This document shows, one piece after another, positions 32,173-57,381 of a stretch of DNA of 64,000 bases. Under the pieces are notes generated by a model that was given only the letters and a program-made list of their open reading frames with translations, did not search any database and had not been told where the DNA came from. Both the position numbers and the translations under genes were made by a program. Position 1 is the stretch's first letter. The number at the start of each line of letters is the position of its first letter. Origin of the DNA: Alteriqipengyuania halimionae (GTDB lineage Bacteria; Pseudomonadota; Alphaproteobacteria; Sphingomonadales; Sphingomonadaceae); the NCBI RefSeq assembly GCF_009827575.1, contig NZ_WTYR01000001.1, positions 1,612,001-1,676,000 on the forward strand, written 5' to 3'.

Positions 32173-33374
32173 ATTTCCTCTCCCCGTTCGGCCCATAGCG
32201 GCCCTTCGCGGGTCAGATAGGGATTGCGCCGCGTGAGTGCGAGCAACATTCCCAGCGACAAGCACAAGGCGATGGTCGACGAGCCACCGTATGAAATCAG
32301 CGGCAAGGTCATACCCTTGGATGGGAACAGCTGCAGATTGACCAGGATGTTGATGAAGGCCTGCCCGCCCACCAGTGCGATCAGCCCGGTCGAGGCGAGC
32401 ACCGTGAACAGGTCCTCTTCGTCCGCGATACGCGACAACACGCGGATGACCAGCGCGAGGTAGAGGCAAATAATCAGCCCGCACACGAGCAGTCCGAATT
32501 CCTCACCGATCACCGAAAAGATATAGTCGGTATGCGCCTCGGGCAGCGACATCTTGCGTTCGCCCATGAACGGTCCGGTACCGAGCCATCCGCCCGCGCG
32601 CATGGTGCGCGCGGCGAGATCGACCTGGTCGAATTCGGTGCCGCCCGAGAAGAACGAAAGAATGCGGTTGCGCCCGTTCTCGTAGAACAGCAGCACCGCC
32701 ATCAGCAGCGCCACCGCACCGCCGGCAAACAGTGCGAAACGCTGGATCGGAACGCCCGAAACAAGCACCGTGACGCCCAGAACCCCGCCGAACAGCACCG
32801 TCGAGCCGAAATCCGGCTGCATCATCAGCAACCCGGCGATCAATCCGAAATACACGACCGAAAGCGCCACCACGGGCAGGTCCGGATCCTTCAAGCGCCA
32901 GCTCAGGATCCAGGCCAGTGTCACCGCGAAAGCGGGTTTGAGGAACTCGGCGGGCTGCACGCCCATACCGAGCCTGATCCAGCGCTGCGCGCCGTTCACT
33001 TCGTATCCCATGACCGGAACCAGAAGCAGAAGGGTGGTGAATACCGCCGCTGCAAGCAGCGCACCGCGTCGCACCTGCGTGCGCGAACGCATCGAGACAA
33101 AGATCATCGCCGCGAAACCCACGACCAGCCAGCGCAGATGGATGTAGAGGAAGTGGAGCGGATCGAGCGTCTCCTTGGACGTCGAGAGGTCCGCGGCGCT
33201 CGATGGCGAGGCGATCGCCACCGCCGCGATTCCGATGGTCGCCAACGCCACGATCAGGCCGAGCAGGACCTTGTCCAGCTCGCGCCACCAGATCGCAAGC
33301 TCTTCGCCGCGGCTGCGCGGGCGAATGTTGGGAAGCTGATTACGCGCGGCATGGAGCGATGGCGTCGCGGTCAT
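32169..33374 (-). CDS. ftsW: Septal SEDS peptidoglycan polymerase FtsW
   Basis: Glycosyltransferase of the SEDS family that works with the class B PBP FtsI at the septum. The 401-residue protein has about ten membrane segments; SEDS marks include PAEFLKPAFAVTLAW (about 140), the large extracellular loop with GTGPFMGERKMSLPEAHTDYIFSVIGEEFG (about 275-304, containing the catalytic Asp) and SYGGSSTIALCLSLGMLL near the end. The ATG overlaps the murD stop. Confidence 0.96.
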   Translation of the reverse strand: MTATPSLHAARNQLPNIRPRSRGEELAIWWRELDKVLLGLIVALATIGIAAVAIASPSSAADLSTSKETLDPLHFLYIHLRWLVVGFAAMIFVSMRSRTQVRRGALLAAAVFTTLLLLVPVMGYEVNGAQRWIRLGMGVQPAEFLKPAFAVTLAWILSWRLKDPDLPVVALSVVYFGLIAGLLMMQPDFGSTVLFGGVLGVTVLVSGVPIQRFALFAGGAVALLMAVLLFYENGRNRILSFFSGGTEFDQVDLAARTMRAGGWLGTGPFMGERKMSLPEAHTDYIFSVIGEEFGLLVCGLIICLYLALVIRVLSRIADEEDLFTVLASTGLIALVGGQAFINILVNLQLFPSKGMTLPLISYGGSSTIALCLSLGMLLALTRRNPYLTREGPLWAERGEEM

Positions 33375-44957: not shown

Positions 44958-44967
44958 GCCGTTGGTC

Positions 44968-45009
44968 GATGGAAAATGGACTTTCCATCACGTAAAGCCT
45001 ACTTTCCAT
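44968..45009 (+). promoter_or_regulatory. Operator-like palindrome plus extra half-site before the S9 peptidase gene
   Basis: GATGGAAA (44968-44975) and TTTCCATC (44982-44989) form a perfect 8-bp inverted repeat with a 6-nt spacer. A third half-site, CTTTCCAT, lies at 45002-45009, 21 bp (two helical turns) from its copy at 44981. This lies 28 to 69 nt before the ATG of the peptidase gene, as expected for a regulator site. The regulator is unknown. Confidence 0.5.
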
Positions 45010-45036
45010 GTCATCCAATCAAGGGGAGTTGAGACG

Positions 45037-47097
45037 ATGAATATCAAGACTAGATTGTTCGCCACCTGCACGCTGGCCGCCATGGCAATGACGCTACCGG
45101 GCGCCGCGAGCGCGAACCTAATGAATGAAAGCCCATCTATGACCCAGACCGCCGAAGCCGCTCCGCTCATCCCGCGCGAGTCGCTGTTCGGAAACCCCTC
45201 CCGCGCCTCGGCCCAGATCAGCCCCGATGGCGAATGGCTCGCCTGGCTCGCGCCCGATAACGGCGTGCTCAACGTGTGGATGGCGCCGGTCGACGATCCC
45301 GACGCGGCCAAGGTTATGACCAAGGCAACCGATCGCCCGATCCGCCAGTATTTCTGGGCCCCCGACGGTCGCAGCCTGCTCTACATCCAGGACAAGGGCG
45401 GGGACGAGAACTTCCTGCTCTACGGCATCGACATCGCCAGCGGCAACGAACGCACGCTGACCGATTTCGAGAACACCCGCGTCATGCTGATCGGCGGTTC
45501 GGACCGGATCAAGGACAAGGTCCTCGTCGGCCTCAACAATCGCGATGCGCGGTTCCACGATGTCTACATGCTCGATCTCAACAGCGGCGAGCTGACCCAG
45601 ATGATCGAGAACAACGGCTATGCGGGGTTCGTCGCCGACGACAATCTCGACGTTCGCCTTGCCCTGCGTCCCAATGCCGAAGGCGGCATGGATTTCTTCC
45701 GCGTGGTCGAAAACGAAGTCGAAGCCGAGCCGTTCGGCAACACGACGCTGGAAGATTCGCTGACCACCAGCCCGGCCGGTTTCACCACCGATGGCAAGAC
45801 GCTCTACTGGCTCGACAGCCGTGGCCGGAACACCGGCGCGCTGGTCGCGATGGATGTCGAAACCGGCGAAACCCGCATGGTGGCCGAGAACGCCAAGGCC
45901 GATATCGGCGGCACGATCCGCGACAAGGAAACCGGCGAAGTCGAAGCCTATTCGGTCAATTACCTGAAAAACGAATGGACCGCGCTCGATCCGGAAGTGA
46001 AAGCCTCGCTCGACTTCCTCGAAGCCAATCTCGAAGGCGAATTCGGGATCGGCTCGCGCACCGATGACGACACCAAGTGGATCGTCGGCAACGATCCGGT
46101 CGTCGGGCCCAGCAAAAGCTATCTCTACGATCGCACCGACAACACGCTGACTGAGCTCTACGTGACCCGCCCCGAGCTGGTCGGCGCACCGCTTCAGCCG
46201 ATGCACACGCTCGAGCTCAAGTCGCGCGACGGGCTCACCCTGCCCTCGTACCTGACGCTCCCGCCGGGCAGCGACAGCGATGGCGACGGCAAGCCCGACC
46301 AGGCGGTGCCGATGGTCCTGTTCGTCCATGGCGGCCCCTGGGCACGCGATGGCTATGGCTTCAATCCCTACCACCAATGGCTCGCCAATCGCGGCTATGC
46401 GGTGCTGAGCGTGAACTATCGCGGCTCGACCGGCTTCGGGAAGGACTTCATCAACGCCTCGAACCTCGAATGGTCGAAAGCGATGCATGACGATCTGATC
46501 GACGCCACCCAGTGGGCGATCGACGAAGGCATCGCACATAAGGACAAGGTCGCGATCATGGGCGGCTCCTATGGTGGCTACGCCACGCTGGTGGGCCTCA
46601 CCTACACGCCCGAAACTTTCGCCTGCGGGGTCGATATCGTCGGCCCGTCCAACCTCGAGACGCTGCTTTCCACGATTCCGCCCTACTGGGCCCCGGTGAT
46701 CGCGCAGTTCCACGAGCGGATGGGCAATCCCGAGACGCCCGAAGGCAAGCAACTGCTGATCGACGCCAGCCCACTCTACAAGGCGGACCGGATCACCAAG
46801 CCGCTGCTGATCGGCCAGGGCGCCAATGATCCGCGCGTCAATCAGGCCGAAAGCGACCAGATCGTCGATGCGATGAAGGAAAAAGGCATCCCGGTGACCT
46901 ACGTTCTCTATCCGGACGAAGGCCACGGCTTCGCCAAGCCCGAAAACAACATCGCCTTCAACGCGGTGACCGAGAACTTCCTCGCCACCTGCCTTGGCGG
47001 CCGCGCCGAACCGATCGGCGATACGGTGGGCGCATCGACCGCCGAGATCGTCGAAGGCGCGGACTTCGTGCAGGGCCTGTCCGAAGCAATCAAATAA
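45037..47097 (+). CDS. Secreted S9-family prolyl oligopeptidase-like peptidase
   Basis: A 686-residue serine peptidase with an N-terminal signal peptide (about 1-26, ending ASA). Residues 45-410 form a beta-propeller with WD40-like repeats (SPDGEWLAWLAP), and the C-terminal alpha/beta hydrolase domain has the nucleophile Ser511 in GGSYGGYA, with Asp598 (GANDPRVN) and His630 (EGHGFAKPEN) completing the triad. SDSDGDGKPD at about 413-422 is an acidic loop that could bind calcium. Closest type is the acylaminoacyl-peptidase/DPP4-like group. A palindrome lies just upstream. Confidence 0.93.
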   Translation: MNIKTRLFATCTLAAMAMTLPGAASANLMNESPSMTQTAEAAPLIPRESLFGNPSRASAQISPDGEWLAWLAPDNGVLNVWMAPVDDPDAAKVMTKATDRPIRQYFWAPDGRSLLYIQDKGGDENFLLYGIDIASGNERTLTDFENTRVMLIGGSDRIKDKVLVGLNNRDARFHDVYMLDLNSGELTQMIENNGYAGFVADDNLDVRLALRPNAEGGMDFFRVVENEVEAEPFGNTTLEDSLTTSPAGFTTDGKTLYWLDSRGRNTGALVAMDVETGETRMVAENAKADIGGTIRDKETGEVEAYSVNYLKNEWTALDPEVKASLDFLEANLEGEFGIGSRTDDDTKWIVGNDPVVGPSKSYLYDRTDNTLTELYVTRPELVGAPLQPMHTLELKSRDGLTLPSYLTLPPGSDSDGDGKPDQAVPMVLFVHGGPWARDGYGFNPYHQWLANRGYAVLSVNYRGSTGFGKDFINASNLEWSKAMHDDLIDATQWAIDEGIAHKDKVAIMGGSYGGYATLVGLTYTPETFACGVDIVGPSNLETLLSTIPPYWAPVIAQFHERMGNPETPEGKQLLIDASPLYKADRITKPLLIGQGANDPRVNQAESDQIVDAMKEKGIPVTYVLYPDEGHGFAKPENNIAFNAVTENFLATCLGGRAEPIGDTVGASTAEIVEGADFVQGLSEAIK

Positions 47098-47105
47098 GGC
47101 GCAAT

Positions 47106-47233
47106 CTCCCCTCCCGCTTGCGGGAGGGCTGGGGGGTGGGCATGAAGCGATCGTAGCGATTGCAGCGGCCCACCCCGCTGCGACTGGCGAGCAAGCTCGC
47201 AAGTCTCGCTGCCCCTTCCGCTTGCGGGAGGGG
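47106..47233 (+). repeat. Intergenic palindromic repeat element, copy 1
   Basis: A ~128-bp element between the S9 peptidase and the SDR gene. It starts with CTCCCCTCCCGC / TTGCGGGAGGG and ends with CCTTCCGC / TTGCGGGAGGGG, so each end is itself a hairpin, with GC-rich sequence between them (CCCACCCCGCTGCGAC). It closely matches the reverse complement of the element at 55821-55953. Confidence 0.75.
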
Positions 47234-47263
47234 TTGTTCGTTTCTGAGGGAGAGTGTGCCGAC

Positions 47264-48070
47264 ATGAAAAAAGCGATCTTCATCACCGGCGGCGGGTCCG
47301 GCATCGGGCGGGCGACCGCGATCAAGTTCGGCCAGGAAGGCTGGTTCGTCGGTCTCGGCGATGTCGACATGGACGCGATGCGCGAGACCGAGAAGCTGCT
47401 GCCGGGCGGCTATCACTATTCGCACCAGTTCGACGTGCGCGACCGCGAAGGCTGGGACAAGGCGCTGGCCTCCTTCAAGGCGGCAGCCGGTGGCCGGATC
47501 GACGTGTTGTTCAATAATGCCGGCGTCCCGCTGGGTGGACCGCTGGCGGAGAACTCCACCGAAGAGGTCGAGCGCTGCATCGATATCAATCTGAAGGGCG
47601 TGTTCCACGGCGCGATGGCGACCTATCCCTATCTGAAGGAATCCGCTCCCGGATCGGCCCTGATCAACACGGCGAGCGCGGCAGGCATCTGGGGCACGGG
47701 CGGCGCAGCGGTTTATTCGGCCACCAAGTTCGGCGTGCGCGGAATGAGCGAAAGCCTCGATGCCGAATGGACGCCCGACGGGATCAAGGTCGCGGCGATC
47801 ATGCCGAGCTTCATCGAAACCCCGCTGCTCGACCATGCGCCCAATCGCGGCAGCAATGAATCGATCCGCGGCCGGGTGAAGGCCGCCGGGCTGGAACTGA
47901 CTCCGGTCGAGGATGTCGCGCAGGCGGTGTGGGATGCGGTGCATGGCGACGATCTCCACGTCGTCGTCGGCAAGACCGCAAAGCAGTTGCGCTTCGCTGC
48001 GCGCTGGATGCCGGGCAAGCTGCGCAAGCGATCGAAGAAGATGGCCGGCGTGATGGGAGAGAAAGCGTGA
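47264..48070 (+). CDS. Short-chain dehydrogenase/reductase
   Basis: A 268-residue classical SDR. The cofactor motif GGGSGIG starts at residue 9, NNAG is at 84-87, and the catalytic residues are Ser138, Tyr151 and Lys155 (YSATK). Asp33 after the second strand (LGDVD) favours NAD over NADP. The C-terminal 25 residues are basic. The substrate is unknown. Its stop overlaps the start of the split esterase (GTGA). Confidence 0.9.
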   Translation: MKKAIFITGGGSGIGRATAIKFGQEGWFVGLGDVDMDAMRETEKLLPGGYHYSHQFDVRDREGWDKALASFKAAAGGRIDVLFNNAGVPLGGPLAENSTEEVERCIDINLKGVFHGAMATYPYLKESAPGSALINTASAAGIWGTGGAAVYSATKFGVRGMSESLDAEWTPDGIKVAAIMPSFIETPLLDHAPNRGSNESIRGRVKAAGLELTPVEDVAQAVWDAVHGDDLHVVVGKTAKQLRFAARWMPGKLRKRSKKMAGVMGEKA

Positions 48071-55411: not shown

Positions 55412-55816
<405 letters not shown>

Positions 55817-55820
55817 AATA

Positions 55821-55953
55821 CTCCCCTCCCGCCTGCGGGAGGGGCAGCGAGACTTGGGCTTGCACAGCAAGTCCTGGTCGCAGCGGGATGGGCCGCCACC
55901 CGAACCGCCGCGACAAAGCCCACACCCAGCCCTTCCCGCAGGCGGGAGGGGAG
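55821..55953 (-). repeat. Intergenic palindromic repeat element, copy 2
   Basis: A ~133-bp element in the glnB-glnA spacer. Its ends are CTCCCCTCCCGC / CTGCGGGAGGGG (55821-55844) and CCTTCCCGCA / GGCGGGAGGGGAG (55931-55953). Its reverse complement aligns along its length with 47106-47233, including shared internal blocks such as CAAGTCTCGCTGCCCC and CCCGCTGCGAC. So these are two members of one repeat family in opposite orientation. Confidence 0.75.
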
Positions 55954-55971: not shown

Positions 55972-57381
55972 ATGGCCAGCGCAAAAGACATTCTGAAACA
56001 GATCAAGGACGAGGAAATCGAATGGGTCGACCTTCGATTCACCGATCCCAAGGGCAAGTGGCAGCACCTCTCCATGGTCGCCGGCGCGCTGGACGAGGAC
56101 ATGCTCGAAGACGGTCTCATGTTCGACGGATCGTCGATCGCCGGTTGGAAGGCGATCAATGAAAGCGACATGATCCTGCGCCCCGATCTCGACAGCGTCT
56201 ATGTCGATCCGTTTAGCGCCACGCCGATGCTGATCGCATTCTGCGACATCGTCGAGCCGAGCACCGGGGAACTCTACGGCCGCGATCCGCGTTCGACCGC
56301 GAAGCGGGCCGAAGCCTATCTCAAATCGACCGGCATCGGTGACACGATCTATGTCGGCCCCGAAGCCGAATTCTTCATGTTCGACGATGTCCGTTTCGAA
56401 GACGGCTATGCCGCCTCGGGTTACCGCCTCGACGATATCGAACTGCCGACCAATAGCGGCAAGGAATACGAGATGGGCAACATGGCCCACCGTCCGCGCG
56501 CCAAGGGCGGCTATTTCCCGGTCGCGCCGGTCGACAGCGCCGGAGATATCCGCGCCGAGATGGTCTCTACCATGATGGAAATGGGCCTCGACTGCGACAA
56601 GCACCACCACGAAGTGGCCGCTGCGCAGCACGAGCTCGGCCTGACGTTCTCCGAACTGACGACCTGCGCCGACCAGATGCAGATCTACAAATACGTCGTG
56701 CACCAGGTCGCCCATGCCTATGGCAAGACCGCGACCTTCATGCCCAAGCCGATCAAGGACGATAACGGCTCGGGCATGCACACCCACATGTCGATCTGGA
56801 AGGACGGCAAGCCGCTGTTCGCGGGCAATGAATATGCCGGCCTCTCGGACACCTGCCTCTATTACATCGGCGGCGTCATCAAGCACGCCAAGGCGCTCAA
56901 CGCGTTCACCAACCCGACGACCAACAGCTACAAGCGCCTCGTCCCGGGCTTCGAAGCACCGGTGCTGCTCGCCTATTCGGCGCGCAACCGTTCGGCCTCG
57001 TGTCGCATCCCCTATGGTGCGGGCGAAAAGGCCAAGCGTGTGGAATTCCGCTTCCCCGATGCGATGGCCAATCCCTACCTCGCCTATTCGGCGCTGCTGA
57101 TGGCCGGCCTCGACGGGATCCGGAACAAGATCCACCCGGGCGAAGCGATGGACAAGAACCTCTACGATCTGCCGCCCGCCGAACTGGCCGACGTGCCGAC
57201 CGTGTGCGGCAGTTTGCGCGAAGCGCTCGAAGCGCTCGAGGCAGACAACGACTTCCTCACCGAAGGCGGCGTGTTCACCAAGGAACAGATCGAAGCCTAT
57301 ACCGAGCTCAAATGGGACGAGGTGCTGCGCCTCGAAACCACGCCGAGCGCGGTCGAATTCGACATGTACTACAGCGCCTGA
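55972..57381 (+). CDS. glnA: Glutamine synthetase, type I
   Basis: ATP-dependent ammonium assimilation to glutamine. The 469-residue protein has the N-terminal signature [11 protein letters not shown], the metal and glutamate sites (VGPEAEFF), the ATP region [21 protein letters not shown], and the adenylylation tyrosine in [10 protein letters not shown] near 399, so it is of the adenylylation-controlled GSI-beta type. Start at 55972 ([12 protein letters not shown]) is the usual N terminus. A terminator follows at 57407-57445. Confidence 0.98.

Follow-up and report, generated by a model that had tools for sequence, protein, structure and literature searches.

A sphingomonad-wide family of REPIN-like palindromic elements with a conserved internal hairpin

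Two inverted copies of a palindromic intergenic element in a 64,000-nt stretch of the Alteriqipengyuania halimionae genome (the window; contig NZ_WTYR01000001.1, positions 1,612,001 to 1,676,000) belong to a sphingomonad-wide, REPIN-like family in which a hairpin termed H3 is a new module. The family was judged likely (probability about 0.7) to consist of dispersed, non-autonomous elements working like REPINs, which are inverted doublets of REP sequences. Each REP-like half is made of a GC-rich hairpin and a tail; in single-stranded DNA or RNA, the inverted halves would pair via their tails into one long hairpin. One half of the full-length form additionally bears H3, which is imperfectly paired, has fixed arms and ends in a variable, self-complementary tip. 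Among the points against this reading are that no mobilising enzyme was found, that the copy number in the genome is low and that near-identical copies were seen in a single genome (G146).

Anatomy of the element

The copies at 47106–47235 (+ strand, copy 1) and 55821–55953 (− strand, copy 2) were aligned full-length in opposite orientation as one element, both of the full-length form ('type A'). They shared 75% identity over positions 9–136 of 148 (BLAST, own genome, E = 2.8e-15) and scored 103 and 96 bits, respectively, with the covariance model. Folding compared with dinucleotide shuffles gave z = −7.5 for copy 1 and z = −7.7 for copy 2. In the window, 6 matches to the hairpin pattern CTCCCGCNTGCGGGAG (1 mismatch allowed) were counted where chance would give 0.06, and 6/6 lay inside the two copies. 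The initial annotation had described two inverted copies of one element, each between genes of the same strand, and both statements were borne out. Copy 1 begins 8 nt after the stop codon of an S9-type prolyl oligopeptidase-like gene (44962–47097, +; start codon provisional) and is followed by a short-chain dehydrogenase-like (SDR) gene (47264–48070, +). Copy 2 lies 4 nt after the stop codon of glnB (PII protein; 55478–55816, +) and 18 nt before glnA (glutamine synthetase; 55972–57381, +). All four genes were named by eye. Copy 1 is oriented as its flanking genes are, and copy 2 is opposite to its own.

The full-length element is ordered as H1, tail, variable spacer, GCCCACCCC, H3 and terminal hairpin H4. 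H1 is the terminal hairpin CCCCTCCCGCnnGCGGGAGGGG and is followed by the tail YYGGGGGTGGGC (consensus over full-length copies: a linker YY, then the tail GGGGGTGGGC), with which GCCCACCCC pairs. In copy 1 (all on the + strand), H1 was placed at 47108–47128 by folding and the covariance model, the tail GGGGGGTGGGC, forming the 5' half of helix H2, at 47131–47141, the variable spacer, partly palindromic itself, at 47142–47167, GCCCACCCC, the complement of the tail and 3' half of H2, at 47168–47176, module H3 (GCTGCGACT-tip hairpin-AAGTCTCGCT) at 47177–47210, and H4 at 47212–47233 (covariance model). In copy 2 (− strand), H1 and H4 were placed by the covariance model at 55930–55951 and 55823–55844, and H3 occupies 55846–55884. 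H3 is an asymmetric hairpin, GCTGCGACTA-[variable complementary tip]-AAGTCTCGCT; according to the alignment, it contains a bulge of two bases and, in most cases, an A-A mismatch. The hairpin-core-hairpin design proposed earlier was therefore right for the terminal hairpins; the core, however, is asymmetric and contains H3, which had been overlooked and which varies least of all the parts across the copies examined.

Forms without H3 are short, symmetric inverted doublets, and half units also exist. A permuted arrangement (GCCCACCCC-H3-hairpin-tail) was found in 30/188 H3 contexts, some of them from records of Novosphingobium and Erythrobacter. Across 93 doublets, the element ends read TCT|CCCC and GGGG|AGA, the terminal inverted repeats are TCTCCCCTCCCGC...GCGGGAGGGGAGA, and the inverted repeat reaches out to TCT...AGA; in the end composition of these doublets, neither a GTAG nor a CGTC tetranucleotide tag was present at the hairpin foot. 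Outer arms were 85% identical within a copy versus 73% across copies, the doublets having been selected for perfect hairpins. The Rfam 15 covariance models gave no match to the element, and no tRNA or tmRNA identity was found for it.

Distribution, placement and mobility

Rather than two copies only and nothing in related species, the genome search proposed by the initial annotation returned about 13 copies or partial copies in the 2.8-Mb genome (pattern and BLAST), and many sphingomonad genomes also carry the family. Five copies in the genome have H3 (at 32348, 496872 and 875931, and the two in the window), five are short doublets without it (459751, 598204, 1843674, 2033211 and 2610480) and three are half units (26913, 2604745 and 2686510). 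Matches to the element model were obtained in 127/199 sampled genomes of the bacterial family, covering 76/96 genera; in 24 genomes from other families of the same order, BLAST gave no match at E ≤ 1e-5. When the H3 pattern was scanned against 84,980 species, the matches listed were sphingomonads or unspecified proteobacterial bins. The exact H3 pattern, in a class-wide sample, matched 4/5 family genomes versus 2/380 others. One of these two outsiders (G232, L400:1500–1536, another family) has a hairpin-forming H3 in its rpsL-rpsG gap, beside a small hairpin; the other match is not H3-like in appearance. The element was also located on 14 plasmids of sphingomonads, and a scan of viral sequences gave 37 contigs. 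By sequence or by name, no earlier description of the family was found in the portion of the open-access literature covered.

Copies are almost exclusively intergenic and occur in both orientations. When gene calls were made by a simple ORF-based procedure, 85 element-bearing gaps were tandem, 43 convergent and 13 divergent; the neighbour pairs remaining after subtraction of these gaps numbered 296, 77 and 77, respectively, and convergent gaps are therefore favoured and divergent (promoter) gaps avoided. In tandem gaps, 50 elements were opposite to the genes and 35 in the same orientation, so that there is no strand rule. Copies may survive near stop codons because hairpins are tolerated there. 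Positions just after stop codons, the enrichment in convergent gaps and a T-rich tail after H4 of copy 1 would also fit bidirectional transcription terminators; this is nonetheless very improbable, given that a T-run follows 5–6/93 copies on either side and is lacking at copy 2, and that a simple terminator has no need of H3.

The element was dispersed as a unit to unrelated intergenic sites. In genomes G115 and G132, with ten copies each, mean identity was 83% and 80%, and flanks were 25–29% identical, which is the chance level. Element-free sites occur in relatives: both window gaps are without the element in the one congener compared, so the element moves or has moved. The glnB-glnA gap is also element-free in other genera where synteny was readable. 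A half unit is present in the peptidase-SDR gap of a genome from another genus (G007), and insertion there could therefore predate the genus, with later loss.

No signal of a target-site duplication was found in the 93 doublets, a result resting on comparison of the two flanks of each doublet rather than on exact empty-site junctions; the borders are AT-rich. The terminal inverted repeats would be expected of a MITE of a DDE insertion sequence. This origin is rather improbable, however, since no duplication marks the 93 doublets, conserved internal hairpins and half units are atypical of MITEs, and the two pairs of neighbouring copies inspected had ordinary genes, and no transposase, between them. 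Near-identical copies, indicating recent moves, were seen in G146 alone, where the element lies inside a larger repeat. In that genome (L188-L204), a larger palindromic repeat (..AGCGGCCATTCT | element | ACCAGCGCAACCCCTCAATGTCCGCT..) captured the element and is present in about 8 near-identical copies, and a second composite is present in three copies.

Pairing across subfamilies and at the gcvH-gcvPA gap

Pairing was kept across sequence subfamilies. Among 14 copies, the named helices were paired in 93.8% of cells, and two-sided changes numbered 7 versus 1.8 in column shuffles. The H3 tip stem had a mean of 4.75 pairs versus 2.88 in shuffled tips (123 distinct tips); for tips of common lengths, the stem was 4.67, and 3.31 when halves were exchanged among copies. 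Between genera, the hairpins, the tail and the H3 tip differ yet stay paired, and the H3 arms are fixed, this fixity being partly a selection effect because most copies came from models or patterns containing H3; the gcv copies were picked by their position and are cleaner in this respect. G115 carries a GGGAGAGGG/GGTGAGGG subfamily with unchanged H3 arms.

The gcvH-gcvPA gap (L050:1970–2105; L373-L399 upstream of gcvPA) holds the GCGGGAG subfamily, which is that of the window, in five genomes and other H3 subfamilies in four (G069, G079, G090 and G124). In the latter, the terminal hairpins are AGAGGAG, AAAGGAG or related, and in places GTGGTG/CACCAC replaces GTGGGC/GCCCAC. Between subfamilies, both arms of H1, H2, the H3 tip and H4 changed together and the H3 arms remained nearly fixed; these helices were read sequence by sequence, since the A3 alignment of gcv copies mixed subfamilies badly. 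Other contents of this gap were a short doublet in G127 and CCCCGC-type doublets in G183, G122, G034 and G116, and several genomes had no palindromic doublet there. Occupancy by varied doublets could reflect an insertion hot spot or, alternatively, an advantage of having a hairpin at this site. A few copies, such as those at gcvH-gcvPA, may persist as intercistronic mRNA structures.

Compensatory change and occupancy of the gcvH-gcvPA gap in several genera could likewise be explained by a cis-regulatory or small RNA that is under selection and not mobile. As an account of the family this is improbable: copies stand in both orientations to the genes, have varied gene neighbours, are dispersed in multiple copies within genomes, are missing at the window sites in most relatives and are unmatched in Rfam.

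Mobilisation and comparison with known systems

In the REPIN-like reading, the doublet would pass through a single-stranded hairpin as intermediate and be copied in trans by an enzyme of HUH/Y1-like or other type, and H3, with its fixed arms, bulge and A-A mismatch, would be the best candidate docking site for that enzyme. The mobilising-enzyme and docking steps are put forward tentatively. Somewhat more speculative is the proposal that H3 may be the recognition hairpin of a non-RAYT mobilising system, placed in the linker of REP-like doublets from several subfamilies, which have fixed H3 arms but diverged terminal hairpins; one putative trans-acting enzyme could then copy different doublets across sphingomonads, and some copies would later have been kept at operon gaps such as gcvH-gcvPA.

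RAYT-associated REPs and REPINs usually exceed 100 copies per genome, and the REPs flank the gene of the REP-associated tyrosine transposase (RAYT, Y1_Tnp). The initial annotation had suggested a paired REP/BIME or small non-autonomous element, possibly with such a transposase. A dispersed, multi-copy, intergenic inverted hairpin doublet was confirmed; the RAYT association was not upheld. The sole Y1_Tnp gene of the genome is a pseudogene, its reading frame being disrupted and containing an in-frame TGA. No element was found near it. Y1_Tnp matches were obtained in 22/119 family genomes, and in these 22 no element lay within 1.5 kb of any match. A RAYT partner was rejected on the basis of the pseudogene here and the lack of linkage elsewhere; because the defining features were looked for and were absent, the element is not assigned to a RAYT-associated REP family. 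The pseudogene (L059:1725–2404) has inverted repeats of its own (AATCGACTTTCGG.. / ..CCGAAAGTCAATT), and two copies of TGTCCCCGGAATTTTCA lie in tandem close by.

Loss of the RAYT in many hosts of what was once a classical RAYT-mobilised REP/REPIN family would account for the architecture, for the retained Y1_Tnp pseudogene and for the somewhat higher copy number in Y1-positive genomes (medians of 13 and 2 copies; p = 0.012 by the Mann-Whitney test, not adjusted for relatedness and with copies counted up to 18 per genome). Persistence of REPs beyond RAYT loss is described in PMC6006769. Against such a history, which is considered unlikely, stand the lack of linkage, the lack of a GTAG/CGTC tag and the 27/41 family genomes with at least 10 copies in which no Y1_Tnp was detected.

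Like MITEs, the elements described here are small, non-autonomous and intergenic and have terminal inverted repeats; unlike them, they show no target-site duplication, and no parent element was found at the Y1 genes or between the two pairs of neighbouring copies inspected. The GI-GIII REPINs, or REP doublets (BIMEs), of Pseudomonas fluorescens SBW25 comprise extragenic hairpin singlets and inverted doublets with a spacer (PMC3116915). The present family resembles them in having hairpin singlets and inverted doublets of ~70–130 bp that are extragenic and spread as a unit, and differs from them in its lack of a linked RAYT and of a GTAG-type tag, in its extra asymmetric H3 and in its copy number, about a dozen in this genome rather than the hundreds of SBW25.

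The tags of the REP superfamilies published so far are GTAG or CGTC, and the CGTC-tagged alphaproteobacterial REPs have 8–9 bp stems with AT at the base, the CGTC tag and mostly a CCA tail (PMC3733652). A palindromic doublet of CGTCATTGCGAGCG... type resembling these was seen in a genome of the same bacterial family (G022, L111), in the flank of the glnA locus. As described in PMC3733652, CGTC REPs are similar to the present family in being abundant in alphaproteobacteria, in occurring mostly as inverted dimers and in having no dedicated transposase known; they differ from it in sequence, the ends here being TCTCCCC...GGGGAGA and the tail GGGGGTGGGC. For REP-like elements that lack a linked transposase, CGTC REPs among them, the question is what copies them. 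In the family described here, H3 is a defined conserved hairpin, many genomes have copies and many have none, and some gaps hold different subfamilies; the identity of the mobiliser and a possible influence on operon mRNA are thus directly testable.
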